In this document: positions 5,787 through 38,086 of the stretch, one piece after another
How positions within the stretch are numbered: the first letter of the stretch is position 1
How the letters are laid out: each line of letters begins with the position of its first letter
Assembly (NCBI GenBank): GCA_035559435.1
Contig: DATMBC010000075.1
Coordinates: forward strand, 1 to 63,692
Direction of reading: 5' to 3'
Length of the DNA stretch: 63,692 bases
Origin: a bacterium
GTDB lineage: Bacteria > Zixibacteria > MSB-5A5 > WJJR01
Position numbers and translations under genes: made by a program
The notes under the pieces: generated by a model
Database searches by the model: none
Told to the model about the DNA's origin: nothing
Seen by the model: only the letters and a program-made list of their open reading frames with translations

Positions 5787-5811
5787 CATGACCGTGACAG
5801 TCATATATGAT
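5783..5811 (+). promoter_or_regulatory. Candidate sigma70-type promoter with overlapping inverted repeat, upstream of the first pilin
   Basis: ATAACA (5783-5788), a 17-nt spacer and TATGAT (5806-5811) match the -35/-10 consensus at 4 of 6 and 5 of 6 positions. An inverted repeat ATGAC-N7-GTCAT (5788-5804) sits within the spacer, where a repressor could bind. Transcription from here would give the first pilin a leader of about 100 nt. This is pattern matching only. Confidence 0.4.
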
Positions 5812-5918
5812 GCGCGGTGCGCAAGAAATCGGCCGAGCTGCCGATAGCCAAATTAAGCAGCGCTGAGATTAGAAGCTCGGGGCAGCCGAGAAGTGACAAC
5901 AGTATGGGGAGGACGCAC

Positions 5919-6350: not shown

Positions 6351-6357
6351 ATCGCCG

Positions 6358-6900
6358 ATGCGAGGGGCGTCATCGGTGTTGCGTCGGCGCGAGCCGATCG
6401 ACGCCATGATCAGCGTGCGCGCACAACGCCACCAATCCGATCGTGCGGGAGTGGATTTCCGTCCGCTTCCGCGCCGTCGCTGTCCACGGAACGCGGGGTT
6501 CACCCTGATCGAACTGGTCATTGTGATCGTGGTCCTGGGCGTCATGGCGGCGGTGGCCATCCCGGTCATCGGCACGATCCTGGAATCGTCAAAGGAGACC
6601 GCCACCAAGGAAGAGATGCAGCGCTTGGCGCGGGCGGTGGCCGGGGCCGATACCGGTGGCGATCGGGGGTACGAAGGCGATGTCGGCCGACTGCCGGGCA
6701 CACTGGTGGACCTGGCCGTCAAGCCGGCGTCCGTGCCGGCCTGGGATCCGTTCACCCATGTCGGCTGGAACGGGCCCTACATCGACAGCACCCGCGGCGA
6801 CTACCTCTATGACGCCTGGGGACAGTTGTACGTCTATGACACGCTCACACGCACCCTTGAGAGCAATGGGTCAGGCAGCGCGATCACGATTTCGTTCTAA
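6358..6900 (+). CDS. Type IV pilin-like/pseudopilin protein
   Basis: A 180-aa open frame with prepilin site AGFTLIELVIVIVVLGVMAA at about residue 48. The mature part resembles GspG-like proteins: it contains DVGRLPGTLVDLAVKPASVP and WNGPYIDSTRGDYLYDAWG, a calcium-loop-like YLYDAWGQ segment. The leader from the ATG at 6358 is unusually long; an in-frame ATG at 6406 would shorten it to about 30 residues, so the start is unsure. It follows the first pilin by 7 nt and is presumably a second filament subunit or tip pseudopilin. Confidence 0.82.
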   Translation: MRGASSVLRRREPIDAMISVRAQRHQSDRAGVDFRPLPRRRCPRNAGFTLIELVIVIVVLGVMAAVAIPVIGTILESSKETATKEEMQRLARAVAGADTGGDRGYEGDVGRLPGTLVDLAVKPASVPAWDPFTHVGWNGPYIDSTRGDYLYDAWGQLYVYDTLTRTLESNGSGSAITISF

Positions 6901-6915
6901 GCAGGTCAGCGACGG

Positions 6916-9740: not shown

Positions 9741-10309
9741 CGCACCGCCCTCGTTGGATTATCTGGACGGCCGGCACCGTGGTGTACTGTGCCGCCTGGG
9801 TTGCGCTGGTGTATCTGCCGCTCCGGCAGCATGAGCAGCGCGAGTCTGCCGAACGCGCCGACTGGCAGATCAAAGTCGAAGACATGCTGCGGCGACTGGA
9901 TGCCGTGCCCGCGGCGGTTGCGCGCCTCGACTCGTTGGAACGTGCGGTCGCGCTCGGCGCGGGCGTCTTGCCCACGGGGGATTCGCTGGATGCGTTCTTA
10001 TTGCAGTGGGCCGCGCTGGGCCTATCCCGCGGCATCGCGACCGTCAAGGTCGAACCGGAACTGGCCAGCATGATGGCGCTGAATCTGCCGTCAAACCGAT
10101 CGTCGTTCGAATTGGACACATTGCTGGTGAATCTTTCGGCCAGCGGGTCGTTTCACAGTATCGGCGGATGGCTGGACGAGATCGAAGCGCAGCCCGCCTT
10201 TCGCTTCTGGCGGACCGGACGTTGGGACGATGCGGAAGAGCCGGGGAACGTGCGGTTCTCCGGCATGGCCGCGATTCTGGTGGCGGTGCCGAAGGGGAGG
10301 GCTTCATGA
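9737..10309 (+). CDS. PilO/GspM-like inner-membrane assembly protein
   Basis: A 190-aa bitopic protein: a short basic N-terminus (MTHRPRWIIW), one membrane helix (TAGTVVYCAAWVALVYLPL) and a coiled-coil-prone stretch (RQHEQRESAERADWQIKVED) leading to a small ferredoxin-like periplasmic domain. The size and pattern of PilO/GspM, its position between the PilM-like and PilP-like genes, and the ATGA overlap with the gene before it support the call. It would form the periplasmic alignment scaffold. Primary sequence is weakly conserved in this family, so homology is inferred mostly from context. Confidence 0.7.
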   Translation: MTHRPRWIIWTAGTVVYCAAWVALVYLPLRQHEQRESAERADWQIKVEDMLRRLDAVPAAVARLDSLERAVALGAGVLPTGDSLDAFLLQWAALGLSRGIATVKVEPELASMMALNLPSNRSSFELDTLLVNLSASGSFHSIGGWLDEIEAQPAFRFWRTGRWDDAEEPGNVRFSGMAAILVAVPKGRAS

Positions 10310-10788
10310 GCGCCTCCCGGCGTCGACAGCTTTTGTTCGCGCTCCTGGTAGGGAGCGCCGTCTTCGGTCTGTACATGAAGCCATGGGAGCGGCGGCGTCC
10401 GACGGTCGGCTCCGTTGCGGATGAGTCCGCTCCGATGGCGACGAATGTAGCCACGATGACGCCGTCGACCGTTCCGGTGCTTGTGGCGGATGTGGGCTGG
10501 CCGGCACGCGATCCATTTGCGCAGCCCGGCGAGTTTCCGACGCGGCGCGACGATCGTCCGAAGGTCGCTGATCGGGCGTCCCTGCCGAGGCCGTCGTTGC
10601 GGCTGCAGGGAATCGTCGGTGTTGACGGAACACGATCCTGTGTGATTGGCGGCGAAGTTCACTGCGTCGGAACCACGGTGCAGGGATGGATGATCACGGA
10701 GATCGCCGCGGATGGAATCTGGTTGTCGCGGGCAGGGCAGCGGCTGTTTGTGCCGCTGAAGTCGTTCGAGCCGTCCGGGGGGAAATGA
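10306..10788 (+). CDS. PilP/GspC-like pilotin-type linker protein
   Basis: A 160-aa protein with a basic start (MSASRRRQ), one membrane helix (LLFALLVGSAVFGLYM), a proline-rich linker containing ARDPFAQPGEFPTRR, and a compact C-terminal domain: LRLQGIVGVDGTRSCVIGGE then GWMITEIAADGIWLSRAGQR. The DPF motif and the LQGIV...I.G pattern are typical of PilP/GspC homology regions that bind the secretin N-domains. It overlaps its upstream neighbour by ATGA and overlaps the secretin start, so it is translated with the secretin it would contact. Confidence 0.75.
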   Translation: MSASRRRQLLFALLVGSAVFGLYMKPWERRRPTVGSVADESAPMATNVATMTPSTVPVLVADVGWPARDPFAQPGEFPTRRDDRPKVADRASLPRPSLRLQGIVGVDGTRSCVIGGEVHCVGTTVQGWMITEIAADGIWLSRAGQRLFVPLKSFEPSGGK

Positions 10789-12074
10789 TGCATCGCCGAT
10801 TGCTGATTCTGATGTGGGCCGCCACAGTGGCGGGGAACGCCGCGATTGCCTGGTCGAAACCGGCCGCGCGCGATGTCTCGTTGCGCTTCTCATCAACGCC
10901 GGTCCCGGTGGTCCTGCGCGCGCTGGCCGAACAGGTCGGATTTGATCTGGTGGTCGGCCCGGGGATCGAGGCCGAGATCGATGTCGACCTCAACGGCGTG
11001 CCCTGGGAGACCGCGCTGGATGCGGTGGCCGCAAGCCATGGCCTCTCGTATCAATGGCGCGACGACGTGCTGGTGGTGCTGCCCGGCGGCGAAGGGAATG
11101 GATTCTTGACGCACCAAGTGGTGACGCTGCGCTATGCGAATCCACTGGCGGTCAAGACCGTGCTCGCGTCAGTCCTGCGCGCGCCGGCGAAGGTGGAACT
11201 GCTGCAGGCGGTGACCACCGGCACGACCGCCGCCACCGCCGCGCCTCCGCCCGTGCTGGTCGTCTCGGAATCGCCGCAGGCGATGCCGGCGCTGCTCGCA
11301 TTGATTGATTCGCTGGACGTCGAGCGCCCGCAGTTTGAAATCGAAGTGAAGTTCGTGGAGACGACGCTGGACGACAAGATGGATGTGGGGTTCAATTGGC
11401 CGACCCGTGTGTCGGCCACGCTCTCCAACCGCGACGCGTCGGGCACCGCCAGCGAGACCAACCAACTCCAGCCCGCCGCCGAGTATGACATCCCCGACGG
11501 CAAGATCTGGAAATTCGGCACGCTGAGCATCGATCAACTCACCGGCTTCCTCGACCTGCTCAAGCAGAACGGCAAGTCGAAACTGTTGTCCGACCCGCGC
11601 GTGACGGTGGTCGAGTCGGAGCGCGCGGTGATGCGGGTGGCCACCACCATTCCGGTGCAGACGTTGAACCGCTTCTCCGAGGGCGGCACCATCCAGGATA
11701 TCGTCAGTTTCCAGGATTTGGATGTCGGGATCACGCTGGCGGTAACGCCCCGGCTCAATGAGAACGGTCTGATGACCTTGGATGTCGAGCCGGTGGTCGA
11801 GGAGATCACCGGATTCACCGGGCCGGCGGATAATCAGCGGCCGATCACATCCAAACGGACCGTCCGCACCACCGTGCGGGTGAGAGACAATGAGACGGTG
11901 GTCATTGGCGGTCTGGTCCGTGAGAACGACATTTCCACCAAGAGCAAACTCTTCCTGCTGGGCGACCTGCCGCTCCTTGGCGGCCTGTTCACCCATTACA
12001 AGACACAGAAGCAAAAGACCGATCTGTTGATTTTCATCACGCCGCGTCTGATCACATCGATGGCCGCCAATTAG
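10785..12074 (+). CDS. gspD: Outer-membrane secretin (PilQ/GspD family)
   Basis: A 429-aa secretin forming the outer-membrane gate of the pilus/secretion machine. A signal peptide ([20 protein letters not shown]) is followed by a secretin/TonB short N-terminal domain ([20 protein letters not shown], about residues 32-100), an N1-like domain, and the C-terminal secretin core with [16 protein letters not shown] and the signature [17 protein letters not shown] near residue 370, ending in [13 protein letters not shown]. It is the last gene of the cluster and ends tail-to-tail, overlapping the GNAT gene by 4 nt. It is short for PilQ, having no AMIN domains. Confidence 0.9.
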
Positions 12075-24608: not shown

Positions 24609-27600
24609 ATGAGAACCCCTATGCCCCATCGGCGTGGCGTGACAATGGTGTGGTTGCTGCTTTGGGCGGCGGCCCTGATGCTGACCGTGGCTTCGCGCGC
24701 GGCCCTCGGCGCGGAGAAGACTTGCTACGACTGCCACGAGGAGGCAAAGACCCGCTTCAAGAAGAAAGTTCAGCACGAACCGGTCGCCAAAGGCGATTGC
24801 GAAGATTGCCATCTGCGCCACGGGTTCTCGAATATGCTGATCCTCAAAAAGGACGGCAAAGAACTCTGCTTGGAATGCCACACCGATTTCGACACCACCG
24901 TGGCATCCGGCGCGCATGCGCACCCGGCGTTCGCGCAGGGAATGTGCAACACCTGCCATGAGCCGCACGCCTCCGATCAAAAGGGACTGATCCGCCACCT
25001 CGACGGCGATGTAGTCTGCCTCGCCTGCCATAAGCAATTGGCGGACACGTCATCGGCCTCGCGGCAGCATCCGCCGTTTGCCGAACGCGCCTGCGGGCAG
25101 TGCCACGTGCCCCACACCGGTCCGTTGGACAAGCTCCTCAACGCCGATCAGCGCTCGCAGTGCGGGGTCTGCCACGACAATGGGGGCGTTCAGCGCGCGC
25201 ATGACGCCAAGGGGATCAACCCGGCGGGGCTGGAATGCTCGGGCTGCCACGATCCGCATCGCTCGTCCAAGCCCGCGCTGATCGGCGAGCATGTGCATCC
25301 GCCAGTGGCCGACGGCATGTGCGACGCCTGCCACACCGGGGAACCTGTGCCGCCGCAGTCCATCGGCGCGGCCGATTCCACCTGGAACGGGTGCTCCGCC
25401 TGCCATGAGAACATCGGCGCCAAACTGGAACTGGCCACGCCGCATGCGCCGGCCGCCATGGGCGAATGCTACCAATGTCACTCGGCGCATCAATCCAGTC
25501 GCCCGGGGCTTTTGAAGGATGGCGTGGCGCTGCTGTGCCAGACCTGCCATGAGGACATGTCGGCGCCGGTGCTGGAAAAGACGGTCAGCATTCACCAGCC
25601 GGTGCTGGCGGGAAACTGCAACGTCTGCCACGACGCGCACGGCTCCGCGGAAAAATCGCTGTTGATCAAACCCGGCGAGGCGCTCTGCCGCGATTGCCAC
25701 ACGGACGCGAAATTCACCGCGTCGCATCATCTGCAGGCCGCCGACCTCGGCTGCCTGGACTGCCATTCGCCGCATGCGAGCATGCAGCCGGCGCTGTTGC
25801 GCGAAACGCCGCAAGCCACCTGCGTCAAATGCCATGATCCGCGCCTGTCGCCGACGATGGTGGCGCACGAGCCGGTCAAGCAGGGCGATTGCGCCATCTG
25901 TCACGACCCGCACGCCGGCGTCGGCGCCAAGTCATTGCAGCAGGAGCCGCCGATGCTCTGCTTCAATTGCCATCAGAACATCGCGCGTTTTGTCACCGCC
26001 GAACACAAGCATTCGGTGGTGGAGGACTGCGGCACCTGTCACGGCGCGCACGAAGCGCCGCACAAGGGACTACTGTTGAAGCCCGGGTCCGGGGTCTGCG
26101 CCGATTGCCATGATGTCGCACGCGACCCGGCGGCCAAGTCGGTGCACAAACCCTTCGATCAGGGGGATTGCGGCGGTTGCCACAATCCGCACGGCAGCCA
26201 GTTTGCCAACCTCCTGGGCCCGCGCCGGCAGATGCTGAGCACGCCGGTCGGACAGATATTCAACTACCCCAAACTGGACAGCACGTCCGTCTCTCTCTGC
26301 CGGACCTGTCACGCCGACGAAATCGATCTGTGGCAGACCAAGACCGTGCAGCACCTGCCGGCGCGCAACGGCGAGTGCTCCGCCTGCCACTCGGCCCATC
26401 AGTCGCCCAATGGCAATCTGCTGACGAAGCCGACCTACGAGCTCTGTCAGGGGTGCCACGATCCCGCCGCCATTCCGGCCGAGCCGCATCGGGGGATCAA
26501 TCTGGCCAGCGCCGATTGCGCCCAATGCCATGACCCGCACGCTTCAGAGCGCAAGGGGCTGATCAAGTCGAACACGCACGTGCCGTTCGGCGATGGCTCC
26601 TGCGATGCCTGCCACACCGGCCCGGGGAGCGTCACGCTCACGGCCGCGCAGCCCGATCTCTGCCTGACCTGTCATGAGGACCTGCAGACGCAACTGGACA
26701 TGACCGTCGCGCATGCGCTGGCGGCAGGCGGCGAGTGCACGGCCTGCCACAGCGCACACTCGTCGAACGAGCCGCATCTGTTGACGGGCAAACTGTCGTC
26801 GGTCTGCGGATCATGCCATGATGCCACCCCCGGCAAGATCCGCCACCGTCCCTATGCGGAAGGCGACTGCCGGCGCTGCCATGAGCCGCATGGTTCCGCG
26901 CAGCCCGGCCTGCTGGTGAAAAACGCGAACGGTCTCTGCCTGGATTGTCACACCACATTGGCGGAACGTATGCAGAACGAGACACGTCACGGCGCCATTG
27001 CCGAAGGGTGCCTGGCCTGCCATGCCGGCCATGCGTCGGACAACGCCTCGCTCCTGCAGTTGCCGCCGTCGGAGCTCTGCGGCAAGTGCCATGACACCAA
27101 GACCGCCGCCTGGCGCGCGGTGCATGTGGTGCCGGGCGTGGCGGCCACCGGCGGCGACTGCATGTCCTGCCACGATCCGCACACCACGGCCGCCCGAGGC
27201 ATGGCGATGCTCAAGCGCTCGCAGCATCCCCCCTTTGAAGCGCGCGAGTGCGGCGCCTGCCACGAAGCCGGCGCGACCGAAGTCCGTGGCGACCGTCAGC
27301 TGTGCGGGCAATGCCACGACGAGACGATCGCGGCCATCGACGGCATGCCGGTGGTGCACGCGGCCATGGCCGACAGCGCCGCCTGTATGACCTGCCACTC
27401 GCCGCACGTGGGCGACACCCCCGCGCTGCTGCGCAAGACCGGGTTCTCCGTCTGCACCAACTGCCACGAAACGATCAACCTCGCCGATTCGGTGGTGCAC
27501 AACCCGGCGCGCGAGGACTGCGCGATATGCCACACCCCGCATGGCGGCAGCGACGCGCGGCTGTTGTCCGAGACGGACATCATGGCGTTGTGCATGCGCT

Positions 27601-27797
27601 GCCACGAAGACGCGCCCAAGACGCACTTCCATGCGATGGGCGAACAGACCAAGAATCCCGACAACCGCGGCAAGATTGTCTGCACCAGCTGCCACTCACC
27701 CCACAATTCCGCGCAAAAAGCGTTGCTTCTCGGCGACGCGATGCGTGGTTTGTGCGTGCGCTGCCATGATCCGTCGGCATCGCACAGTGGAGGATGA
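24609..27797 (+). CDS. Giant multihaem c-type cytochrome with 42 CxxCH motifs
   Basis: A 1062-aa exported cytochrome. After a signal peptide (helix MVWLLLWAAALMLTVASRAA) I count 42 CxxCH haem-binding motifs from CYDCH to CVRCH, about one per 25 residues. Many are in the paired-CxxCH arrangement with following HxPH or HAS/HGS segments (for example CNTCHEPHAS and CSACHSAHQS). No membrane anchor or other domain is visible. Repeats of about 45-50 residues suggest growth by duplication of a two-haem unit. It would be a periplasmic or surface electron conduit. GGAGG at 24604-24608 abuts the ATG at 24609; the in-frame ATG at 24621 has a more usual spacing and may be the true start. It overlaps the next gene's region by a few nucleotides. 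Confidence 0.93.
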   Translation: MRTPMPHRRGVTMVWLLLWAAALMLTVASRAALGAEKTCYDCHEEAKTRFKKKVQHEPVAKGDCEDCHLRHGFSNMLILKKDGKELCLECHTDFDTTVASGAHAHPAFAQGMCNTCHEPHASDQKGLIRHLDGDVVCLACHKQLADTSSASRQHPPFAERACGQCHVPHTGPLDKLLNADQRSQCGVCHDNGGVQRAHDAKGINPAGLECSGCHDPHRSSKPALIGEHVHPPVADGMCDACHTGEPVPPQSIGAADSTWNGCSACHENIGAKLELATPHAPAAMGECYQCHSAHQSSRPGLLKDGVALLCQTCHEDMSAPVLEKTVSIHQPVLAGNCNVCHDAHGSAEKSLLIKPGEALCRDCHTDAKFTASHHLQAADLGCLDCHSPHASMQPALLRETPQATCVKCHDPRLSPTMVAHEPVKQGDCAICHDPHAGVGAKSLQQEPPMLCFNCHQNIARFVTAEHKHSVVEDCGTCHGAHEAPHKGLLLKPGSGVCADCHDVARDPAAKSVHKPFDQGDCGGCHNPHGSQFANLLGPRRQMLSTPVGQIFNYPKLDSTSVSLCRTCHADEIDLWQTKTVQHLPARNGECSACHSAHQSPNGNLLTKPTYELCQGCHDPAAIPAEPHRGINLASADCAQCHDPHASERKGLIKSNTHVPFGDGSCDACHTGPGSVTLTAAQPDLCLTCHEDLQTQLDMTVAHALAAGGECTACHSAHSSNEPHLLTGKLSSVCGSCHDATPGKIRHRPYAEGDCRRCHEPHGSAQPGLLVKNANGLCLDCHTTLAERMQNETRHGAIAEGCLACHAGHASDNASLLQLPPSELCGKCHDTKTAAWRAVHVVPGVAATGGDCMSCHDPHTTAARGMAMLKRSQHPPFEARECGACHEAGATEVRGDRQLCGQCHDETIAAIDGMPVVHAAMADSAACMTCHSPHVGDTPALLRKTGFSVCTNCHETINLADSVVHNPAREDCAICHTPHGGSDARLLSETDIMALCMRCHEDAPKTHFHAMGEQTKNPDNRGKIVCTSCHSPHNSAQKALLLGDAMRGLCVRCHDPSASHSGG

Positions 27798-27799
27798 CA

Positions 27800-28942
27800 A
27801 TGAGACGAGGTTGGGGACGAGAACTGTCGTGTGCGCTGGCGGTGGGGACCGCGGCGCTGGCGTTGACGTTCTCGCATGAGGCCCGCTCGCAGGCGCCGCT
27901 TGATCCGCCGGGGAATCTGCCTTACGACGGGGCGCATCTGTCGCCGAGCGACGGAGTGCTGCGCGATCCGGCGCTGCCGCGCGGCGACTGCGGCCAATGC
28001 CACATCACGCACGCGGAGACGCAGCCGCAGGCGCAGAACCTGTTTGCGCCGAACAACAACATGCTTTGCTACTCGACCAGCGGCATCGGCGGCTGTCATA
28101 TCAACCGCCCCGACGGCGGCGCCGCCGGCTACCCGGCGCAGGAGCAGGACCGGTTCCCCGACCAGCATCCCTACCACGGCTACTTTGAGGCCGGCGCGGG
28201 AGGCGTGCGCGTGCCGGGGGTCAACAACCGCACCCGATGGCCGGGCAAACTGATCTGGGAGAACACCGCCTACTCGGCGCATTACGCGAGCCCGTCTATG
28301 CCGCGTCTGGACAACACCGGCCGGGGCTCATGCCTCAATTGCCACGATCCCCACAACGGCGCGACGCCGTATGATCAACTCAAGCGCCGTTACGGTCCAA
28401 TCGCCGGTTCGGGCACCAACGCCGCCCCGGCCGAATATGCCCTGTGCCTGGACTGTCACGGTCCCAGCGGACCCTCCGGGCTTACGCCCGAATCGCGCCG
28501 GATCGCCGACTTCTACAGCCGTGTCAGTTCCGGTTCCTCACGCGCCGGCCATGCGATTTCCTACACCCGCGGCGCGGTCAAGCGGGGCGATCGGCTGCCC
28601 TGCTACGATTGCCACAACCCGCATGGCTCAGCCGGCAGCGACGGGCAGCATCCCAACGGTTATCTCATCTCCGATCAACGACCCGGTTGGTATGGCCTGA
28701 CCGACATCAGGAACGACGCGGCGCAGGTGCGGCGTTTCTGCACCGGCTGCCATGCCTATCCGGATCAACCGGGCAGCGGGGGAACGGTCGAAGGCATCCG
28801 GCCGAAGGCGCTGCCGAATGAATACCCGCATCGCTCGTACGAGACCAAGCATTGCTACGACTGTCACGGGCGCGACTACTCCAGCCCCGGCGGATTCAAC
28901 GTGCACAATCCCTCCTCGGGAGAACACGGCGGAGGCGATTGA
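27800..28942 (+). CDS. Six-haem (possibly seven) exported c-type cytochrome
   Basis: A 380-aa protein with signal peptide (ELSCALAVGTAALALTFSHE) and six canonical CxxCH motifs: CGQCH, CLNCH, CLDCH, CYDCH, CTGCH and CYDCH. In addition, CYSTSGIGGCH is a C-X8-C-H arrangement in the place where a haem might be expected. It has the paired-CxxCH style HDPHNG and HNPHGS. GGAGG (27789-27793) lies six nucleotides before the ATG at 27800, which is chosen over the ATG at 27794 that overlaps the previous stop. Its place between the giant cytochrome and a beta-barrel gene suits the periplasmic partner of a porin-cytochrome conduit. Confidence 0.9.
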   Translation: MRRGWGRELSCALAVGTAALALTFSHEARSQAPLDPPGNLPYDGAHLSPSDGVLRDPALPRGDCGQCHITHAETQPQAQNLFAPNNNMLCYSTSGIGGCHINRPDGGAAGYPAQEQDRFPDQHPYHGYFEAGAGGVRVPGVNNRTRWPGKLIWENTAYSAHYASPSMPRLDNTGRGSCLNCHDPHNGATPYDQLKRRYGPIAGSGTNAAPAEYALCLDCHGPSGPSGLTPESRRIADFYSRVSSGSSRAGHAISYTRGAVKRGDRLPCYDCHNPHGSAGSDGQHPNGYLISDQRPGWYGLTDIRNDAAQVRRFCTGCHAYPDQPGSGGTVEGIRPKALPNEYPHRSYETKHCYDCHGRDYSSPGGFNVHNPSSGEHGGGD

Positions 28943-28967
28943 TACGCGGTCCCGGTGTCACCGATGG

Positions 28968-30581
28968 TTGGCGGGTGTGCCGGGGCGTGCCCTGGGAACG
29001 ATCGCTCTGGTGTGGGCGGCCGCATGCCCCGCGGCGGCGCAGGAAATCGGCGGATCGATGAAACTCGACTACCAGAGCACATCCGCCGGCGCGGAGGCGG
29101 ATGCCAATGAATCGGTCGCGCAGCAATACTATCTGCGGCTGACCGACCGTCTCTTTGTCAAGAACCTGTTGGTGTTCACCGGCAACTTCTACTACCGCAC
29201 CGGCAACGCGGTTCAGCCGGTGGATTTTCGCCCGCGCTATGACCTGCAGCTCTCCAGCGCCGGCTATGGCGCGCGGGTCGGGTATGAGCCGTACACACTG
29301 CGTCGGGGCGGCGCGGCGCCCGATGAACAAAGCCGCCGCTGGCGCGCCAACGTGCAGCTGTCTCCGGCGAAGTGGCCGCGCCTGGCCTACGACATGTCGC
29401 GCTTCCGGACGGAAACGGCCGATCGGCCCGGCGGACGCGACAACTGGGATTCGTACATGATGAACTGGCAGGGAGGATCGCGAGTGCTGGCTACCACTTA
29501 CTCCCGCCAGCGCCGGCACGCGCGCGACACGCTTTCGGAAACGGTCGAATCCTACCGCGCGATCGCCTCGATCGATCTGCCGCTGCCCGGCCAGGGGCGG
29601 CTCGGGCTCGGGTACAACTTCGACCGCACCTGGAATCGCCGCGTCGGCCAGGTCACGACCGCGGTCAATCAGCATGTGCCGACCGCCAATCTGTCCAGCC
29701 AGCCCGCCCGTTGGGTCTCGCTGACCGGTCAATACAGCGGCCGCTACATCCGCCGCGACGCGGGCGGCAACCCCACAGACAACACCGACGATCAACTCGC
29801 GACCGGTGTGCTCACTCTGATGCCCACCGCGCGCTGGTCGATTGGCGTGCTCCGCTACTTCGAACGGACCGAAGAACGGCAGGGCACCGAGTCCCGCAAC
29901 ACCGACTACTGGCAAGTGCGCGCCAACACCGACCGGATCTTCTTCCGCCGGATCAACAGCCAGTTCACCGTCTATCGCATCGCCTACCAGGGGGCGGGCA
30001 AGGGTGTTCGCTTTTCGGACGCCTACTTCGCGGCGCTGCGCGGCCGTCCGCATCGGCACGCCGAGCTGTCCACCGAGGTCAGTTTGGCCGACCGGCACGG
30101 ACTGCAGGCGGTGCGCTACGCGGTCAGCGGCACCTCCTATTTGCGTCTGTATCCGACACACGGCTCGCAGGCGCAGGTGTCCTACAATGCCATCGCCGAG
30201 GGCAAGCGGCTCTCGGAGTTTGACATCAGCGAGGAGAGCGTCTCCGGCTCAATGCAGTACTCGCCGGATGCCAGACTGAGCTTCACCGGAACCAGCACTC
30301 TGCGCCGCAACCGGCTCCTGGAGTCGTCGTGGACGATGATCTGGAGTGTGGCGACGACCTATCGCCTGGCATCGGTGGCCAACGCCAGCGCGTACTACGC
30401 CAGCCGCGAGACCGCCCGGACCGCCGGGGCCACCGCCCCCGCGGAGGCGGCCTCTTCCTGGATCCTGACGTTCGATTACTGGCTGAGCCCATCAACGACC
30501 ATCTCAGTGAACTACACATGGCGCGGCAGCGGCCGTGACACACATGACATCTGGGGCGCGGGATTCTCGGCCCAATTCTGA
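28968..30581 (+). CDS. Outer-membrane beta-barrel, putative porin of a porin-cytochrome conduit
   Basis: About 537 aa. A hydrophobic signal (ALGTIALVWAAACPAAAQ^E) is followed by regular amphipathic beta strands through the whole length, such as YYLRLTDRLFVKNLLVFTGN and WVSLTGQYSGRYIRRDAG, ending in aromatic-rich WGAGFSAQF with a terminal Phe as a BAM signal. The size fits a 20-plus-strand MtrB/PcoB-like barrel, though sequence similarity to MtrB is not evident and there is no CxxC near the N-terminus. The start is uncertain: no ATG precedes the signal, and TTG at 28968 or GTG at 28977 are the candidates. It follows the six-haem cytochrome by 25 nt. Confidence 0.78.
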   Translation: MAGVPGRALGTIALVWAAACPAAAQEIGGSMKLDYQSTSAGAEADANESVAQQYYLRLTDRLFVKNLLVFTGNFYYRTGNAVQPVDFRPRYDLQLSSAGYGARVGYEPYTLRRGGAAPDEQSRRWRANVQLSPAKWPRLAYDMSRFRTETADRPGGRDNWDSYMMNWQGGSRVLATTYSRQRRHARDTLSETVESYRAIASIDLPLPGQGRLGLGYNFDRTWNRRVGQVTTAVNQHVPTANLSSQPARWVSLTGQYSGRYIRRDAGGNPTDNTDDQLATGVLTLMPTARWSIGVLRYFERTEERQGTESRNTDYWQVRANTDRIFFRRINSQFTVYRIAYQGAGKGVRFSDAYFAALRGRPHRHAELSTEVSLADRHGLQAVRYAVSGTSYLRLYPTHGSQAQVSYNAIAEGKRLSEFDISEESVSGSMQYSPDARLSFTGTSTLRRNRLLESSWTMIWSVATTYRLASVANASAYYASRETARTAGATAPAEAASSWILTFDYWLSPSTTISVNYTWRGSGRDTHDIWGAGFSAQF

Positions 30582-30600
30582 CCATGCGCGAGGTGAACTC

Positions 30601-31173
30601 ATGAGATTTGCCAATGTCCTTGTCATCGCATCCCTGACGGCGCTGCTGGTGTCGTGTTCCGGCACGCGCTCCTATGTCAATCCCGACGCCGATATGGCGT
30701 ACTACCGCCGTGTCGGCGTGGCCGCCTTCGAATCTCTGGCCGAAGATTCGCGGGCCGGGCAGAAGTTGCAGCGCATCTTTCTGACCGAATTGTTGAAGAA
30801 GGGCAAATTCGACCTGGTGCCGCAGGGTCAGTTCGACAAGGTGGAACTGGAAGTGCGCAACAAGCAGGGGCTGGCTTTTCCGGCGGCGTTGGATTCGGCG
30901 GCGCTGGCTGCCATCGCGCAGCAAACCGGCGCGCAGGGGATCATCATCGGCACCGTGCGCGACTACCGGATGGAACGGGTCGGGCAGGAGGAATTCCCGA
31001 TGGTGGCGTTCTCGCTGAAGTTAATCGATGCCCCCACCGGGCGGGTGGTCTGGGATGTGTCGGTCGGCGAACGCGGCGGGCCGAAACTGCCGGTGATTTC
31101 GCTGGGCGAGACGCACACGTTGAGCGAACTGGCCACCAAACTCTGCCGCCGGGCGCTGGGGACGTTGCCATGA
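30601..31173 (+). CDS. Lipoprotein, CsgG/GNA1162-like outer-membrane assembly family
   Basis: A 190-aa lipoprotein: MRFANVLVIASLTALLVSC^S is a clear signal peptidase II site. The mature part reads VGVAAFESLAEDSRAGQKLQ, then GAQGIIIGTVRDYRMERVGQ and MVAFSLKLIDAPTGRVVWDV, the alternating pattern of the CsgG/DUF799-like ABD fold. CsgG itself secretes curli; relatives are periplasmic-facing lipoproteins of unknown role. GAGGTGAACTC precedes the ATG. It lies just after the beta-barrel gene and overlaps the next gene by ATGA, so a role in assembling or exporting surface cytochromes is plausible but inferred. Confidence 0.8.
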   Translation: MRFANVLVIASLTALLVSCSGTRSYVNPDADMAYYRRVGVAAFESLAEDSRAGQKLQRIFLTELLKKGKFDLVPQGQFDKVELEVRNKQGLAFPAALDSAALAAIAQQTGAQGIIIGTVRDYRMERVGQEEFPMVAFSLKLIDAPTGRVVWDVSVGERGGPKLPVISLGETHTLSELATKLCRRALGTLP

Positions 31174-31961
31174 CACGGTGTGCACTGGCCGCGCTGGCGC
31201 TTGTTGTCGCGCTGTATGGCGCCCTCCGGGCCGAGCCGCTGACGGTGACTTGTCCGGATGGCCGGGAAGTGCTCTGCCGGCTCCTGGATGACCTCGACGC
31301 TTGCGGGCGTCCGCAGGTCGCCGGCGGATGCGGGGGCGTGTCGCTCCTGTACCGGGACTCGGTGCTGGCGGTCGATTCGCTGGTGATTCGCATCTGGTCG
31401 GTGGCGGACACCTGCGGGGAGGCGCAGGTCTGCTTCCAGCCGCTGACACTTCTGCCCGGACGACCCCGACTCGCCGTCTTGCCGCTTGAAAACCTCTCGA
31501 CGGCCGAGGAAGGGGCGCGGGTATTGCAGCGGCTTCTGGAGGAGGCGCTGGCTGGTCTCGAGCCGGCCGAGCTCATCGCGCCGGCGAAGGTCGACGATGC
31601 GGTGATGCGCGGACGAGTGCGGCAGCCGGTGTTGATGGATGATGAACAGCGGGCGCGGCTAAGCAGGGCGCTGGACGCGCAATATCTGGTGGTCGGCTCG
31701 CTGCTTAACTACGAAATCTACCAGGACCAGTACTCCGGGCCGATCCCGATGATCAGCTGTGTGTTGCAGCTTCAGCGGGCCTCCGACGGCCGCACCTTGT
31801 GGTCCGAGTCGCTGCATGCGGTCGGCAACGATGGGGAATGGCTGTTTGCGCTGGGGGTGGAGCATGACATCACCCGTCTGGGCCGCAATCTGGCGCGCAA
31901 AGCGGCCCGCGCGCTGGCAAAGCACATCGCCGATGCCCCCTGCGCGCCGCGCGCCGATTAG
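31170..31961 (+). CDS. Exported CsgG-like/FlgT-like protein of unknown function
   Basis: A 263-aa exported protein with signal peptide (MTRCALAALALVVALYGALR) and a short cysteine-containing N-terminal part (CPDGREVLC, CGRPQVAGGCGG, DTCGEAQVC). A CsgG-like domain follows: RLAVLPLENLSTAEEGARVL, LDAQYLVVGSLLNYEIYQD and CVLQLQRASDGRTLWSESLH. This fold is shared with the preceding lipoprotein, so the two may act as a pair at the outer membrane. Six N-terminal cysteines could form disulphides. The ATG overlaps the preceding TGA. Confidence 0.72.
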   Translation: MTRCALAALALVVALYGALRAEPLTVTCPDGREVLCRLLDDLDACGRPQVAGGCGGVSLLYRDSVLAVDSLVIRIWSVADTCGEAQVCFQPLTLLPGRPRLAVLPLENLSTAEEGARVLQRLLEEALAGLEPAELIAPAKVDDAVMRGRVRQPVLMDDEQRARLSRALDAQYLVVGSLLNYEIYQDQYSGPIPMISCVLQLQRASDGRTLWSESLHAVGNDGEWLFALGVEHDITRLGRNLARKAARALAKHIADAPCAPRAD

Positions 31962-32148
31962 CGGCGTGCCAACCGGTGTAATTGCGGCGAACTTTGTGTC
32001 ACAATCACGGCAGACTCCTCGACTTACTGCCGAGATGGTCGTCGCACGGCCCCCGTCGGGCTTCGAATCGGGCGTGACCGTTGACGTTGGCGCGTGTCGA
32101 TTCTGACAGCTCCTCGCACTTTTCTTTCGTGATTGGCACGGCGTTGCG

Positions 32149-32157
32149 CTGTCAAAA
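32149..32157 (+). promoter_or_regulatory. CTGTCAAAA motif, copy 2, upstream of the NHL-repeat/OmcS-like gene group
   Basis: An exact nine-base match to the copies at 24492 and 35739, 139 nt before the assigned start of the NHL gene. The downstream TCGCG/GAAT part seen in the other two copies is not preserved here. Confidence 0.3.
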
Positions 32158-32228
32158 CAAGAGAAAGGTTTCACAAAATCCGTTGACTTTTCCCGAGTAA
32201 ACGCGATCTTTTGCTTCGTCGGGCGTCA

Positions 32229-32259
32229 CCGCGGCGACCCCCCGTGGGCGTCGCGGCGG
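32229..32259 (+). other. Hairpin in the leader of the NHL-repeat gene
   Basis: CCGCGGCGAC (32229-32238) pairs with GTCGCGGCGG (32250-32259) with one G/G mismatch across an 11-nt loop. No T-tract follows, so it is not a standard terminator. It lies in the probable 5' leader and could affect translation or mRNA stability. Confidence 0.35.
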
Positions 32260-32295
32260 CAAACACTGTATCCGGTACTCGCCAAGACGCGTCGC

Positions 32296-33381
32296 ATGTG
32301 CCACATACGAACCAGCGCTGTATCCCCAAGAGATTGTGAAAATAATCGCAAAGTAAATATATATGTGACGCTTTTTGTCCTGATCGTCGCGGCCGTGATT
32401 CCCGGCGCATCCGTGCGTGCGCAAGTCTCGCCGTGGGAGGTCACGGCCATTCTCACCGAGTCTGCCAGCGGGAAACCGTATCGCGCCATCGTCGGACTCT
32501 TCGCCGATCCGGTGACGGGCGAGTTGTACGTCCTCGATGGCGGGCGCAGAATGATCGACGTGCTCGATTCGACCGGTCTGCCGCGCTACTCGTTTGTCCA
32601 CTGGATCACCGACCCGCAGACGGGGCGTCGCGTGCCGGGTGAACCGCACGCGTTGGTGGTTTCGGCCGAAGGCGAGATTTTCATTACCGACTACTATTCC
32701 CGAATGATCGATGTGCTCAACATCCGCGGCGAGCGGATCGACCAGATCGATGTGCTTGAGGCCATCGGCTGGCATGATCCCTCGCTCCGTCCCGAGAAGA
32801 TCGCGCTGGACGGAGAGGGGCGCCTCTACGTGAGCATCGCCGGCTCACGCACCGGGGTGGCGCGTTGCCTGACGGATGGGTCATCGTGCGAACTTTTGGT
32901 CAACACCACAGCGGAAGGAGTGCAGGCGATAACGGCGATGAGTGTTGCTCCGGATGGTCGATTCGCGGTCTTGGACTACCGCGGCGAACCGGCGGTGCGC
33001 GTCTACGATCCCAGCGGCCGGCTGATTGTGGCCTTTGCCGGGCACGATGTCGCGGAGGGGGATTTGTCCTATCCCGCGTCGTTCCTGTTTGCCGCTGACG
33101 GGTCGTATTGGATCGCGGACGCGCTTCGTCACGCGGTCAAGCACTATTCGGACAAGGGTGAATTCATCGAATACGTCGGGGGATACGGCGCCGGACCTGG
33201 CAGCGTCCGTTATCCCTCCGGAGTCACCGGGGATGGCGTCGGACGGCTGGTCGTGGCCGAGCGGGTCGGTGCTCGGATTCAGGAGTATGTCCTTCCCGGC
33301 GCGGTCTATGCCGCCCCCGCTCAACCCACACCCGCGTCCGGCCCAGGAACCGTCGTGGTGGACCCGGAAAGCGTTGAATGA
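32296..33381 (+). CDS. Exported NHL-repeat (six-bladed beta-propeller) protein
   Basis: A 361-aa protein with an N-terminal hydrophobic segment (VTLFVLIVAAVIPGASVRA^Q) and NHL-type repeats: GLFADPVTGELYVLDGGRRM, ALVVSAEGEIFITDYYSRMI, IALDGEGRLYVSIAGS, SVAPDGRFAVLDYRGEP, FLFAADGSYWIADALRHAVK and GDGVGRLVVAERVGARIQEY. It ends in a Pro-rich tail. The N-terminus before the hydrophobic stretch is odd for a signal peptide, so the ATG at 32296 may be wrong and a GTG just before the hydrophobic part is possible. NHL propellers near multihaem cytochrome genes probably serve as extracellular or periplasmic interaction scaffolds. The stop is followed within 60 nt by an OmcS-like cytochrome. Confidence 0.82.
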   Translation: MCHIRTSAVSPRDCENNRKVNIYVTLFVLIVAAVIPGASVRAQVSPWEVTAILTESASGKPYRAIVGLFADPVTGELYVLDGGRRMIDVLDSTGLPRYSFVHWITDPQTGRRVPGEPHALVVSAEGEIFITDYYSRMIDVLNIRGERIDQIDVLEAIGWHDPSLRPEKIALDGEGRLYVSIAGSRTGVARCLTDGSSCELLVNTTAEGVQAITAMSVAPDGRFAVLDYRGEPAVRVYDPSGRLIVAFAGHDVAEGDLSYPASFLFAADGSYWIADALRHAVKHYSDKGEFIEYVGGYGAGPGSVRYPSGVTGDGVGRLVVAERVGARIQEYVLPGAVYAAPAQPTPASGPGTVVVDPESVE

Positions 33382-33437
33382 GATTACAAGTCATGACGTA
33401 CTCACACGTTTCAACCATCAACCTTGGGAGGCTTCAC

Positions 33438-34454
33438 ATGAAGCGTACCTTCGTGCTGATGGTCGCGCTCGTTCTCATCGTGCCTGTCGCAGTCATGGCC
33501 GGTGATTATCACAAGGGCGTGACCCTCAACTGTTCCGAGTGCCATGTAATGCATGGCTCTCAGCAGCACGGCTACAACGCCGACGGCAGCGGGGTGTTCA
33601 CCCCGATCGGCGGCGCCCCGCCGTACCAGTACCTGCTCCGCAATGAGATCAACGCGCTCTGCCTGACCTGCCATAACAATCAGACCTTCGCGCCTGATGT
33701 CCTGGAGGCCAACGGCGGAACGGCCCCGACCACCGGTCGCCAAGGCGGCGCATTGAACATGAACAACACGGCGCCGTATTTCGCGTCCACCGGCCACACC
33801 TTGGGATCGCATGACGTGGCCCCGGGCGGCACGTTCAGCAACCCCCATGGACTCGAGTGCGTGGACTGCCACCAGCCGCACGGCCGGAGCAGCGGCACCA
33901 ACACCAACCCCTATCGCAATCTGGGCAACTACGACGCCACCCACACGGTGTACACGGCGTACATGACCTATGCGATTGGGACCAACGATCTGACCAAGGA
34001 CGTCTTCGAGCGCACCGCCAGTGGTTCGGATCACTATGACATCGGCAATGTCGACTTCAACGAACCGAACGTCACCGGCTCACGCTATGGCGACTTCTGC
34101 AAGAGCTGTCACACGAACTTCCATGGCAACTCGACCGACGCCCACATGGCCAACGCCGACGGCTGGCTGCGTCACCCGGCGGCCGAAGCGAATATCAGCA
34201 TCTCGACGTTCGGCGCCCGTCTCTATCGTCCGAAGGTTATGAGCGCGACCGGCGATTGGGGCACGCAGGGCACGGCCTTCACCACCGGCCCGACCGACCT
34301 GACCCCGTCCTGCTTCTCGTGCCACCGGGCGCATGGCAACACCAACAGCTTTGGCATAATCCTTCAGGATGGTCTGTCGACCATCGGTGAAGACGGCACC
34401 GCGGGCGCGACGATGCGCACCACCTGCCGCACCTGCCATCGCCAGGGCTCGTAA
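33438..34454 (+). CDS. Hexahaem c-type cytochrome, OmcS-like (candidate nanowire subunit)
   Basis: A 338-aa exported cytochrome: signal peptide MKRTFVLMVALVLIVPVAVM (cleaved near VMAG^D), preceded by GGGAGG. The six haem motifs are CSECHVMHG, CLTCHNN, CVDCHQPHGR, FCKSCHTNFHG with LRHPAA downstream, CFSCHRAHGN and CRTCH. This order matches what I recall of Geobacter OmcS: CxxCHTMH, CLNCH, CSSCHDPHGK, WCANCHTDIH...LRHPAG, CLSCHRAHAS, CNKCH. OmcS polymerises into extracellular filaments. The resemblance is in motif order and flanking residues; filament formation is inferred. Length is about 90 residues shorter than OmcS. Confidence 0.88.
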   Translation: MKRTFVLMVALVLIVPVAVMAGDYHKGVTLNCSECHVMHGSQQHGYNADGSGVFTPIGGAPPYQYLLRNEINALCLTCHNNQTFAPDVLEANGGTAPTTGRQGGALNMNNTAPYFASTGHTLGSHDVAPGGTFSNPHGLECVDCHQPHGRSSGTNTNPYRNLGNYDATHTVYTAYMTYAIGTNDLTKDVFERTASGSDHYDIGNVDFNEPNVTGSRYGDFCKSCHTNFHGNSTDAHMANADGWLRHPAAEANISISTFGARLYRPKVMSATGDWGTQGTAFTTGPTDLTPSCFSCHRAHGNTNSFGIILQDGLSTIGEDGTAGATMRTTCRTCHRQGS

Positions 34455-34468
34455 GACGTTCGCGTTCC

Positions 34469-34523
34469 CGTCCCGCATCGGGGACGTTGTTCCGGGGGGA
34501 CACCGCAACGGCGGTGCCCCCCC
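34469..34523 (+). terminator. Two tandem hairpins after the OmcS-like gene
   Basis: Hairpin 1 is CGTCCC-GCATCG-GGGACG (34469-34486). Hairpin 2 (34494-34523) is stronger: six G, then CACCGC, loop AACG, GCGGTG, six C, with a single A/C mismatch. There is no T-tract after either, so they may act as a 3' stabiliser or attenuator that leaves the OmcS-like transcript more abundant than the downstream cytochrome, and not as a complete terminator. Confidence 0.5.
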
Positions 34524-34582
34524 ATTGTATGGAGTAACACGATGAGATCGCAGAGATATCAGAATCGCGCCGAGGACCACAC

Positions 34583-35677
34583 GTGAGACCCATACTGTCA
34601 ATCGTACCGATCCTGATGAGCATCGCGTCCGTGGCGATTGCGGCGAGCGGTCCTTCGCCTCTGCGTCCGATCCATTTGCGCACGGCCCCGCGGTCCCCGA
34701 TGGCGGCCGGCGCCCAGGCTCTGGACACTTATCACAACGGCGTCACGTTGCGTTGCGCTGATTGCCATGTCATGCATCAGTCGAAACAACATCGACTCAA
34801 CGATGACCCAGTCAATGATCCGTTTGGGGGATATCCCCAGAATTTTGCCGGGGGAGCGCATTTGCTGAAGACGGCGGATCCGATCGACCTGTGCCTGACA
34901 TGCCACGACAACCAGCCCGGGATCCCCGATGTCGTCGGCACGGACATCAATGGCCTGGCGGCCCGTTCGGCGGGCTACTTCGCTGACATCGGAGAACGCA
35001 ATCCCCGCGGGCATTCGTTGGAGCGCGGTCTGAAGACGGAAGATTACGAACTTTGCCTCCGTTGCCATTTCGGCGGGGAACTGGCCACCGCCTCGGTCAC
35101 CTGCATCGACTGCCACAATCCGCACGGCAACGGCCGCCCGCGCAATCTGCAGTGGGCGTCCTACCCGGGCGGCGAGCCGCAGTTCGGGCTTCTGCAATCG
35201 GGGCCGGCCGCGGGTCTGGCGCGTTACGAGGAGGCGAATGTCGCCTACGGGACCGCCAATTCCGACCTGTTGCGCGAAGTCTCCAACATGTGCCTGGATT
35301 GCCACCATGTCTACAGCGGCGAGTCCTACATCGATCCCGACGGCGACGGATGGCACAATCGCCATCCTTCCTACGACAGCGAGCGCGGGTCGACCAACTC
35401 CATCGCTCAGGGCGCGGCGCGGGGCACTACCGACCCGTCGCACTGGGAAGCGGGGTCAGGCGCCGGATTCAACGGCACGTCGCGGCTGAAGTGGGTTGGC
35501 ATCAACGCCACCGACTTTGTCACGGCCACGCAGGTCCAGGCGACGACCAACGGCGTGTTCTGCCTGAGCTGCCACCAGGCCCACGGGAATGGCCACGCGT
35601 TTGCCCTCCGTTGGGATCCGACGACCACTCCGGATGGCCTCGGTTGCGAGCAGTGTCATAATCGGACCGAATTGTAG
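34583..35677 (+). CDS. Heptahaem c-type cytochrome, paralogue of the OmcS-like protein
   Basis: A 364-aa exported cytochrome with seven motifs: CADCHVMHQ, CLTCHDN, CLRCH, CIDCHNPHGN, CLDCHHVYSG with NRHPSY downstream, CLSCHQAHGN and CEQCH. The opening YHNGVTLRCADCHVMH mirrors YHKGVTLNCSECHVMH of the gene before it, so they are paralogues; here an additional haem sits before the PHG motif. The start is GTG (34583) six nucleotides after CGAGGA. A signal helix (ILSIVPILMSIASVAIA) is present. It may be a second filament type or a connector to the outer-membrane conduit. Confidence 0.87.
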   Translation: MRPILSIVPILMSIASVAIAASGPSPLRPIHLRTAPRSPMAAGAQALDTYHNGVTLRCADCHVMHQSKQHRLNDDPVNDPFGGYPQNFAGGAHLLKTADPIDLCLTCHDNQPGIPDVVGTDINGLAARSAGYFADIGERNPRGHSLERGLKTEDYELCLRCHFGGELATASVTCIDCHNPHGNGRPRNLQWASYPGGEPQFGLLQSGPAAGLARYEEANVAYGTANSDLLREVSNMCLDCHHVYSGESYIDPDGDGWHNRHPSYDSERGSTNSIAQGAARGTTDPSHWEAGSGAGFNGTSRLKWVGINATDFVTATQVQATTNGVFCLSCHQAHGNGHAFALRWDPTTTPDGLGCEQCHNRTEL

Positions 35678-35738
35678 GGCGTGTGATCGGCCTGTACGCC
35701 CTCCGGCCGGATGGTTTCCGGACACGGCAGCGTTGATT

Positions 35739-35762
35739 CTGTCAAAATCGCGAGTGAATCGG
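35739..35762 (+). promoter_or_regulatory. CTGTCAAAA-type motif, copy 3, upstream of ccmF
   Basis: CTGTCAAAA (35739-35747) followed directly by TCGCG, then GAAT, then CGG, closely like copy 1 at 24492. It lies 80 nt before the ccmF start. Confidence 0.35.
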
Positions 35763-35827
35763 TCGGAATTGACCGCCGACGTCTTGCCCCCCGCGTAGAT
35801 TCCATGCGGGCGGGAGGAGAACGCTAA

Positions 35828-38086
35828 ATGATGAATGTTCAAAACATGACGCTGTGGCTGGCCGGACTGACGATGTTGGCGGCCATCGTGCTGTACGCGC
35901 GCGCACGCGATGCGCGCATGCTGCGCCTGGCCGACCGGATGGTCTACGCGCATCTGGGTCTGTTGTCGGCGGCGCTGGTCCTGCTCCTGGTCGCCTTTCT
36001 GGCGGACCAGTTCCAGTTCGCCTACGTCGCGCACAATTCCTCGCTGGCCCAGGAGCTCTTCTATAAGATCTCCGCGGTCTGGGCGGGGCAGGAGGGGACA
36101 TTCCTGCTCTGGGCCTGGATGGTCGCCGTCATGGCCGTCTTCGTCATCCGCCGCGGCGGCGAATATCATCGCTGGGCGATGGTCTATGTGCTCGCGACCC
36201 AGGCGTTCCTCATGCTCCTCCTGTTTGTCCGCTCGCCGTTCGCGCCGGTGGAGGGCGGCGTTCCGGCCGACGGCAGCGGGATGAACCCGCTTCTGAAGGA
36301 TCCGTGGATGGTGATCCATCCGCCGATCGTCTTCATCGGGTATGCCGCGTTCACCATTCCCTTTGCCTACGTCATCGCCGCGCTAACGATGCGGTCGTTC
36401 AGGTCGCTGGCGACCACAATTTTCCCGTGGGTGGCCTTTGCGACCGTGACGTTGGGCGCCGGCATCTTCATTGGCGGTTTCTGGGCTTACAAGGTGCTGG
36501 GGTGGGGAGGGTACTGGGGCTGGGATCCGGTGGAGAACGCTTCGCTGGTGCCGTGGCTGACCGGCATGGCGCTTCTGCACGCCCTCATTCTCTATCGCAC
36601 CAAGGGGCAGCTCCCCAAGACCACAATGTGGCTGGCCTGTGTGTCGTACATCCTGGTGGTGTATGGCACCTTCCTGACGCGGTCCGGCGTGCTGTCCGAT
36701 TTTTCGGTGCACTCGTTCGCCGATGCCGGTATCAACTCGTACCTGTCGGCCTTTCTGTTCATCGTCGCGCACATCTCCTTCATCATGCTGCTGATGCGCG
36801 GCCGCAAGGTGACCGGCCCGCCCATTCCCAAAGCGATCAGTTCGCGGGAGTTCGGGCTGGTGACCGGCGTGCTGCTTTTCTGCCTGGCCGCGGCGTTTGT
36901 GATCCTCGGGACGTCGTCACCGATTCTCACTGGCCTGGTCGGGAATCCCTCGAATGTGGCGATGAGTTACTACAACCAGGTCTCGTTGCCGATCGGCATC
37001 CTCATCGCGCTGGTGCTGGGATTTTCGCCCTTCCTGCTGGTCGAACGCACCCAGTGGGGCGAACTCTTCCGGACGGTCATCTGGTCGATCATCGCTGCCA
37101 CGGTGGTGACCGTTGGGGCGATTTTATTGACGACACTGGCGCCGTTGCACGCGGTTTTGATTTTCGTCTCGGTGGCGGCGCTGGCGTCCAACGGCCTGGC
37201 GATCTGGCGGTTTTCGCACGGGCATCCATTGCGGATGGCCGGGCACCTGACCCATCTCGGATTCGCGGTCATGCTGCTTGGGATCATCGCGTCGGCCGCG
37301 TATTCGGGCGAGGAGACGCTGACTTTGCGCTCGGGCGAAACGGGTGAATCCTACGGCACGCAGATTCAATTTCTCCGCGCGGTCAAAGGCGAGACCACCG
37401 AAGACGGTTATCTCGATCTTCGCCTCGTGCGCGGAAACGACACGACCGTGGCGCATCCGAAGCTCTACATCTCCGAGTATTCACAGCAAGTGATGCGCAC
37501 CCCGCACATCGAGAAGGGGTTCCTTTCCGATCTCTACATCGCGCCGCTGGACCATCAGGCCTCAGCCCACGCCGGCCACGGTCTGACGCTGACCAAGGGT
37601 CAGACCTCCTCCTATGGCGGCTGGAATCTGAGCTTTGTCCGCTATGACATGTCGCAGCATGGCGAGGGCGGCGCCATGAAGGTTGGCGCGGTCATCAACG
37701 CCGAACAGAATGGCACATCCTACGAGATCATCCCGTCGATGGAGTCCACGGTGTCGGGCAAGCACTCCCCGATCGTCCGGATCCCCGGCACGGAGATGGG
37801 GCTCTCGCTGGTCGGGATGTCGGTGGAGCAGCGATCGGTCACGCTGGAGATCGATGACCCCACGACGGGGCAGATGGCCGGCGGCGAGTCGCTGGTTCTG
37901 TCGGTGTCGCGCAAACCGTTGACCAGTTTGGTCTGGGCCGGCTGCATCCTGATCACCCTCGGTACCGGCTTTTCCTACTGGCGCCGTCGGGTCGAGGAGA
38001 AACTCGTGATCGCGCACGATCATCCCGCTTCCGCGTTCCCCGGCCTCCCCAAAGGGGGCCGTCTGAAGACCACGCTGCCGCATTAG
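35828..38086 (+). CDS. ccmF: Cytochrome c haem lyase subunit CcmF
   Basis: A 752-aa polytopic protein with the CcmF/CcsA tryptophan-rich haem-handling motif WGGYWGWDPVENAS starting at Trp226, preceded by HPPIVFIGYAAFTIPFAYVI and followed by about a dozen further membrane helices and a C-terminal periplasmic domain (about 500-690) with a closing helix. CcmF ligates haem to CxxCH apoproteins in System I maturation. GGGAGGAG lies before the ATG. No ccmA-E, ccmG or ccmH gene is in the window, so this copy may be dedicated to the adjacent cytochromes, or the rest may be elsewhere. Confidence 0.94.
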   Translation: MMNVQNMTLWLAGLTMLAAIVLYARARDARMLRLADRMVYAHLGLLSAALVLLLVAFLADQFQFAYVAHNSSLAQELFYKISAVWAGQEGTFLLWAWMVAVMAVFVIRRGGEYHRWAMVYVLATQAFLMLLLFVRSPFAPVEGGVPADGSGMNPLLKDPWMVIHPPIVFIGYAAFTIPFAYVIAALTMRSFRSLATTIFPWVAFATVTLGAGIFIGGFWAYKVLGWGGYWGWDPVENASLVPWLTGMALLHALILYRTKGQLPKTTMWLACVSYILVVYGTFLTRSGVLSDFSVHSFADAGINSYLSAFLFIVAHISFIMLLMRGRKVTGPPIPKAISSREFGLVTGVLLFCLAAAFVILGTSSPILTGLVGNPSNVAMSYYNQVSLPIGILIALVLGFSPFLLVERTQWGELFRTVIWSIIAATVVTVGAILLTTLAPLHAVLIFVSVAALASNGLAIWRFSHGHPLRMAGHLTHLGFAVMLLGIIASAAYSGEETLTLRSGETGESYGTQIQFLRAVKGETTEDGYLDLRLVRGNDTTVAHPKLYISEYSQQVMRTPHIEKGFLSDLYIAPLDHQASAHAGHGLTLTKGQTSSYGGWNLSFVRYDMSQHGEGGAMKVGAVINAEQNGTSYEIIPSMESTVSGKHSPIVRIPGTEMGLSLVGMSVEQRSVTLEIDDPTTGQMAGGESLVLSVSRKPLTSLVWAGCILITLGTGFSYWRRRVEEKLVIAHDHPASAFPGLPKGGRLKTTLPH

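Follow-up and report, generated by a model that had tools for sequence, protein, structure and literature searches.

A putative divergent homologue of the osc nanowire cluster, with a 42-haem cytochrome, in an uncultured member of the Zixibacteria

Introduction

The closest described relative of the locus treated here is the osc (omcS-companion) cluster of Geobacter sulfurreducens, GSU2504-GSU2493, for which the facts used come via papers citing Shen et al. 2025 (PMC13194489, PMC12977616). As described there, osc comprises omcS, omcT, oscC, and the genes for OscD (morphology), OscE/F/G (secretion), and OscH (folding), together with oscI (GSU2495; 26 haems, ~70 kDa) and oscJ (GSU2494), and GSU2500-2493 have been assigned to OmcS maturation and secretion (PMC13194489, PMC12977616). 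The present locus lies on a 63,692-nt stretch of contig DATMBC010000075.1 (assembly GCA_035559435.1; the whole stretch is called the window) from an uncultured bacterium of the Zixibacteria. The window belongs to contig C75 of source genome G000 (3.0 Mb, 100% complete). The locus is most plausibly a divergent homologue of the osc nanowire cluster rather than a generic Mtr-type conduit. Below, L and G numbers designate the loci and genomes compared.

Much like osc, the window locus encodes OmcS-family cytochrome(s), a propeller, putative secretion proteins, and the complement of the 26- and 16-haem cytochromes, which here form one 42-haem protein (H42). The same set, including an outer-membrane barrel (BAR) and a pair of PelC-like proteins (LPO1 and LPO2), also occurs in L083, L077, and L097-L100. 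The locus departs from osc in the apparent fusion of OscI with OscJ, in possessing two extra cytochromes (OC6 and C7), and in a barrel of ~535 aa versus ~700. Two other systems also offer a comparison. As in the MtrCAB and Geobacter porin-cytochrome conduits, a large outer-membrane barrel is encoded beside multihaem genes and MtrB is its best fold match; however, the barrel has 28 strands rather than 26, lacks a family-level sequence match, and is accompanied by PelC-like proteins and an OmcS homologue. In the PelBC exopolysaccharide exporter, PelC forms a 12-subunit ring beneath the outer-membrane barrel PelB (PMC12141448), and here, too, PelC-like lipoprotein genes adjoin a barrel gene, although the barrel has 28 strands versus 16, there are two PelC-like paralogues, and the cluster has no polysaccharide genes.

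OmcS-family cytochromes

The central member of the locus is C6 (33438..34454, +), a hexahaem protein with six CxxCH motifs. Single-sequence phmmer searches of the PDB gave nothing firm for C6, C7, or OC6, and C6 alone had no OmcS match. A C6 profile built from 12 relatives and searched against 177,635 PDB sequences retrieved OmcS (6ef8) as the top match (E 1.4e-6), with the next cytochrome at E 0.014. For C7 (34583..35677, +), the top PDB profile matches were OmcS and OmcE. An initial annotation had proposed two OmcS-like cytochromes; of these, C7 is heptahaem, with seven CxxCH motifs rather than six. Full-length OmcS aligns with proteins of related clusters, which are intermediates to C6, at 31-34% identity. 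The OmcS query behind the identity figures agrees with the stretches of 6ef8 in the profile alignment.

Six haems with twelve histidine ligands characterise the OmcS family. In a joint alignment, each of the six CxxCH motifs of C6 falls opposite its OmcS counterpart, and the seven histidines outside these motifs that OmcS has in common with the intermediates are invariant in C6. Those seven are most likely the source of the distal ligands of OmcS, of which six are required. In the OmcS filament, a neighbouring subunit supplies one haem ligand (PMC6584659, Filman et al. 2019). The conserved H39 of C6 aligns with OmcS H16. The latter is taken here to be the inter-subunit ligand. An AlphaFold model of the C6 monomer was weak (pLDDT 60), and its sole significant Foldseek match was OmcS (E 9e-4). 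Together, the profile match, the histidine conservation, and the Foldseek result establish the homology of C6 and OmcS, and by sequence and ligand set C6 is an OmcS-family protein. By analogy with the OmcS filament (6ef8/6nef), it is proposed to be a filament subunit, although C6 is ~25% identical to OmcS and ~70-90 residues shorter. C7 could possibly be a second surface or filament cytochrome.

Related genes occur in several other settings. Three OmcS homologues, 50-56% identical to OmcS, are encoded in a Nitrospira metagenome-assembled genome (MAG; L086 7106-18168), where a PelC-like pair, a barrel, and an NHL propeller accompany them. Tandem pairs of C6-type genes occur in Armatimonadota-type loci (L050, L051, L054, L055, and L061), in most of which a large protein with 8 or 9 haems is encoded downstream. 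MAGs labelled Thermincola ferriacetica (L087 9524, 11113; L091 9515, 11086) carry genes in a row for an NHL protein, a hexahaem protein resembling C6, and a 15-haem protein of ~1,820 aa, and the barrel and PelC-like proteins were not detected in L087/L091.

The 42-haem cytochrome

H42 (24609..27797, +) is a periplasmic cytochrome with a signal peptide and 42 CxxCH motifs, its start lying at 24609, 24621, or further upstream in a frame open from 24324. Pfam recognises 21 paired-CXXCH stretches in it (E 8e-191), well above chance. For seven loci, the 26-haem and 16-haem proteins were joined end to end and aligned with H42; haems 1-42 corresponded with zero offset and the break fell immediately after haem 26. 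From haem spacing alone, all ten 16-haem proteins aligned best at an offset of 26; of the ten 26-haem proteins, seven did so at 0 and three at 9 or 15. By these alignments, H42 is the equivalent of a fused OscI (26 haems) and OscJ (16 haems). For Geobacter GSU2494 (OscJ) itself, a count of 16 is presumed.

The number of haem sites is nearly fixed. There are 42 CxxCH motifs in 19 distinct fused sequences, and ten split pairs, in other phyla and in Zixibacteria, have 26+16; the split genes of the cultured Malonomonas (L085) show the same counts, and the fused protein of L065 has 41 CxxCH motifs plus a degenerate YRVCH at haem position 23. Spacing in the H42 family is also nearly constant, apart from an insertion of 20 residues that follows haem 21. 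In the tree, where some rows are long-branched, a single change separates fused from split forms (SH-aLRT 99), which fits a single fusion or fission. Since the ten haems of MtrA span 80 A (PMC7198977), a linear chain of 42 haems with like spacing would extend, by extrapolation, to ~365 A.

A search of the literature for a cytochrome with 42 haems turned up no matching paper. In the literature searched, to which Shen et al. 2025 itself did not belong, no description was found of a fused, number-conserved 42-haem chain or of a relationship between the secretion proteins and PelC, and priority for both is uncertain. In two genomes of the same family (L026 0-5994 and L028 9939-17907), the locus runs on downstream into genes for additional large cytochromes, which have 11, 19, 17, and more haems.

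Barrel, lipoproteins, and accessory proteins

BAR (28968..30581, +, with homologues indicating a start at ~28968-28977, at either 28968 or 28977) is an outer-membrane beta-barrel with no CxxCH in its ORF. AlphaFold yields a confident all-beta model of 28 strands (pLDDT 84.8). BAR matches no Pfam family, PF11854 (MtrB/PioB) was not found in the genome, and a scan of genome contigs with the barrel sequence alone returned no relatives. The barrels of osc-like clusters, in turn, are matched over their full length by the BAR family profile (prob 99, E 7e-18). A fold search of 350,542 PDB chains gave MtrB as the best match (E 2.4e-10, TM 0.43/0.37), with TonB receptors, ushers, and LptD ranking next. 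An MtrB/PioB conduit by family was rejected, with no profile match on BAR and none in the genome; the likeness to MtrB is one of fold.

LPO1 (30601..31173, +) and LPO2 (31170..31961, +) are paralogues (E 1e-26). LPO1 is a putative outer-membrane lipoprotein with the lipobox LVSC, and none is clear in LPO2. Among named PDB entries, both profiles match PelC best (9h80; E 2.6e-7 for LPO1 and 1.1e-10 for LPO2), and the unnamed matches 5t10, 5t11, and 5t0z are presumably PelC as well. The two proteins had initially been called CsgG-like. In the CsgG family, however, LPO1 scores 16.0 bits against a cut-off of 20.8 and LPO2 has no match, and a CsgG/curli exporter was rejected in favour of the closer kinship with PelC. 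This kinship, considered with the PelC ring beneath an export barrel, supports an export role for BAR and LPO1/LPO2. Through their homology to parts of osc-like clusters outside Geobacter, the three proteins are candidates for OscE/F/G; one-to-one naming with OscE, F, and G would follow from gene order.

The remaining members are OC6, a propeller, and CcmF. OC6 (27794..28942, +), a secreted hexahaem cytochrome with six CxxCH motifs, is encoded directly upstream of the barrel in every fused-type locus. Its family profile has no relative in the PDB, and it is not OmcS-like because three of the OmcS ligand histidines are missing in the joint alignment. The secreted NHL beta-propeller (32296..33381, +) starts at either 32296 (ATG) or 32365 (GTG) and may correspond to OscD, the putative morphology factor of osc. 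The CcmF/NrfE haem lyase (35828..38086, +) had been counted as part of the system, yet it follows the locus on the same strand only in its own genus, and was therefore rejected as a core member.

Conservation of the locus

An ORF check of the window placed all genes of the locus on the plus strand at the coordinates first given to them. The initial annotation spoke of eight genes while listing nine, and its 42-CxxCH and six-CxxCH cytochromes, barrel, NHL propeller, and CcmF were all recovered. H42, OC6, C6, and C7 together contain 61 CxxCH motifs. Genes from H42 to LPO2 overlap or lie tens of bases apart, with wider gaps before NHL, C7, and CcmF. The synteny expected in relatives was found: the order in Zixibacteria is H42-(NHL2-X6)-OC6-BAR-LPO1-LPO2-NHL-C6-(C7), the bracketed parts being variable, and in rearranged form the Eisenbacteria and Krumholzibacteriota keep the blocks NHL-C6 and OC6(or variant)-BAR-LPO1-LPO2, with H42 after them.

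The genes also travel together. Among 58 relatives, strong LPO1 matches occur in exactly the 10 genomes that have a strong C6 match. Across 132 genomes of the phylum, C6 was found in 21, H42 in 19, and both in 18 (hypergeometric 4e-18, kinship uncorrected). A closer type of OmcS homologue occurs in 18 other Zixibacteria genomes of this set, none of which has C6 (0/18); some 2.9 shared genomes would be expected if the two types were independent, again with kinship uncorrected, and both types occur inside the window's own family. The four closer-type loci examined have NHL (3/4), the OmcS homologue, the barrel, two PelC-like proteins, a ~560-aa ORF, and 26- and 16-haem genes, and L077 and L083 share this arrangement. 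The counterpart of the ~560-aa ORF in L083 and L085 is a PPIC-type isomerase. Two genomes of the window's genus keep single parts, each near a DnaE-like gene, as if by deletion or assembly loss: G073 has H42 only (L114 14424-17618) and G071 has C6 only (L117 8354-9421).

Proposed function and alternatives

The locus is probably a fused-type osc module with two tasks, to bring OmcS-family cytochromes out to the cell surface for polymerisation into filaments and to feed those filaments with electrons. The outer-membrane exit for C6 (and C7) would be the 28-strand barrel, with a ring of PelC-like lipoproteins as its base and with help from the NHL propeller. C6 would then polymerise in the manner of OmcS, its H39 ligating a haem in the adjoining subunit. 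H42 could provide a linear haem chain long enough to span the periplasm to the filament base, and OC6, at or inside the barrel, might be the connecting haem set. Polymerisation, secretion, haem contacts, the direction of electron flow, and the role of H16/H39 are the steps that we infer. More tentatively, and with more doubt than confidence, H42 may be a periplasm-spanning wire whose haem number acts as a ruler, docked on a barrel-PelC-OC6 complex that is both the exporter and the electrical socket of the OmcS-like filament. This would create a continuous haem path from the inner membrane to the nanowire, with 42 haems kept either as one gene or as 26+16.

Several observations weigh against the osc-module reading. 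The C6 model aligns with OmcS at a TM-score of just 0.28, the nearest fold to BAR is that of an electron conduit, MtrB, and the Zixibacteria loci that carry the closer type of OmcS lack any counterpart of OC6. Moreover, neither a prolyl isomerase (OscH) nor a YncE-like second propeller was found among the cluster ORFs of the window; PPIC-type proteins occur elsewhere in the genome, and L083/L085 have such a propeller. Since OscH has no counterpart in the cluster, the locus is filed as a variant of osc. A PPIC/SurA-type prolyl isomerase gene does lie at window 62251-63692 (+), ~24 kb from the cluster, and runs past the right edge.

The most serious rival is a porin-cytochrome conduit, in which BAR would hold OC6 (or the C-terminal H42 haems) as a fixed wire across the outer membrane, as MtrB holds MtrA, while C6 and C7 would be surface reductases that need not polymerise and the PelC-like proteins would only aid assembly. 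The fold of BAR and the constant place of OC6 directly before it speak for such an arrangement, as do the other multihaem genes directly before the barrel in Desulfobulbaceae, the scores of H42 with DmsE/MtrA-type and GSU2203 decahaem models, and the weak score of BAR with GSU2204. A conduit is nevertheless unlikely, given that BAR has no MtrB/PioB family match, that the closer-OmcS-type Zixibacteria have the barrel, the PelC-like pair, and the 26/16-haem genes without OC6, that the PelC-like proteins point to export, and that C6 keeps the OmcS ligand set. The initial annotation had combined conduit and nanowire parts in one electron-export locus of an uncultured FCB-group lineage. OmcS homology, conserved order, and co-occurrence support a single locus with OmcS-like proteins; the combination of conduit and nanowire parts needs revision because BAR, the PelC-like pair, and H42 all match parts of clusters with OmcS homologues, without an MtrB/PioB profile.

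It is also conceivable that the same machinery works inward, drawing electrons from Fe(II) or from partner cells, and nothing in the locus fixes the direction. This is very improbable, however, as the characterised relative, Geobacter OmcS, serves outward transfer and the genome's NapC/NirT-type quinol-linked cytochrome fits outward flow. Cytochrome genes often cluster, but an accidental gathering of unrelated ones is scarcely credible here, being contradicted by an order kept in Zixibacteria with blocks kept in two further phyla, by the 18 genomes that have both C6 (21 in all) and H42 (19 in all), by near-invariant haem spacing, and by barrel and lipoprotein homology to osc-type clusters.

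Other genes of the genome

Type II secretion-like genes occur at window 2746-12074 (+) and encode the ATPase GspE, GspF, a protein with a prepilin-methylation motif, and a secretin. They could act as a cytochrome exporter and have no synteny tie to the locus. Elsewhere in G000, the NapC/NirT-type membrane cytochrome is encoded in L104 (G000:C14:12000-26000), where its neighbours have 13 and 5 haems. L103 and L105 encode a protein of 9 haems and one of 13 haems, and a 4Fe-4S protein lies beside the 13-haem one. These multihaem genes (L103-L105) are candidates for the electron source on the quinol side.

Implications

Nanowire export and the electron route across the periplasm are questions for which this locus and its relatives provide a comparative handle. 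The barrel with its PelC-like proteins is the likely exit, and the 42-site haem chain has persisted through fusion or fission and through deep divergence; both propositions are testable. With ligand-level evidence, OmcS-type machinery would now extend to uncultured Zixibacteria and, through related loci, to Krumholzibacteriota, Eisenbacteria, Armatimonadota, and Planctomycetota.

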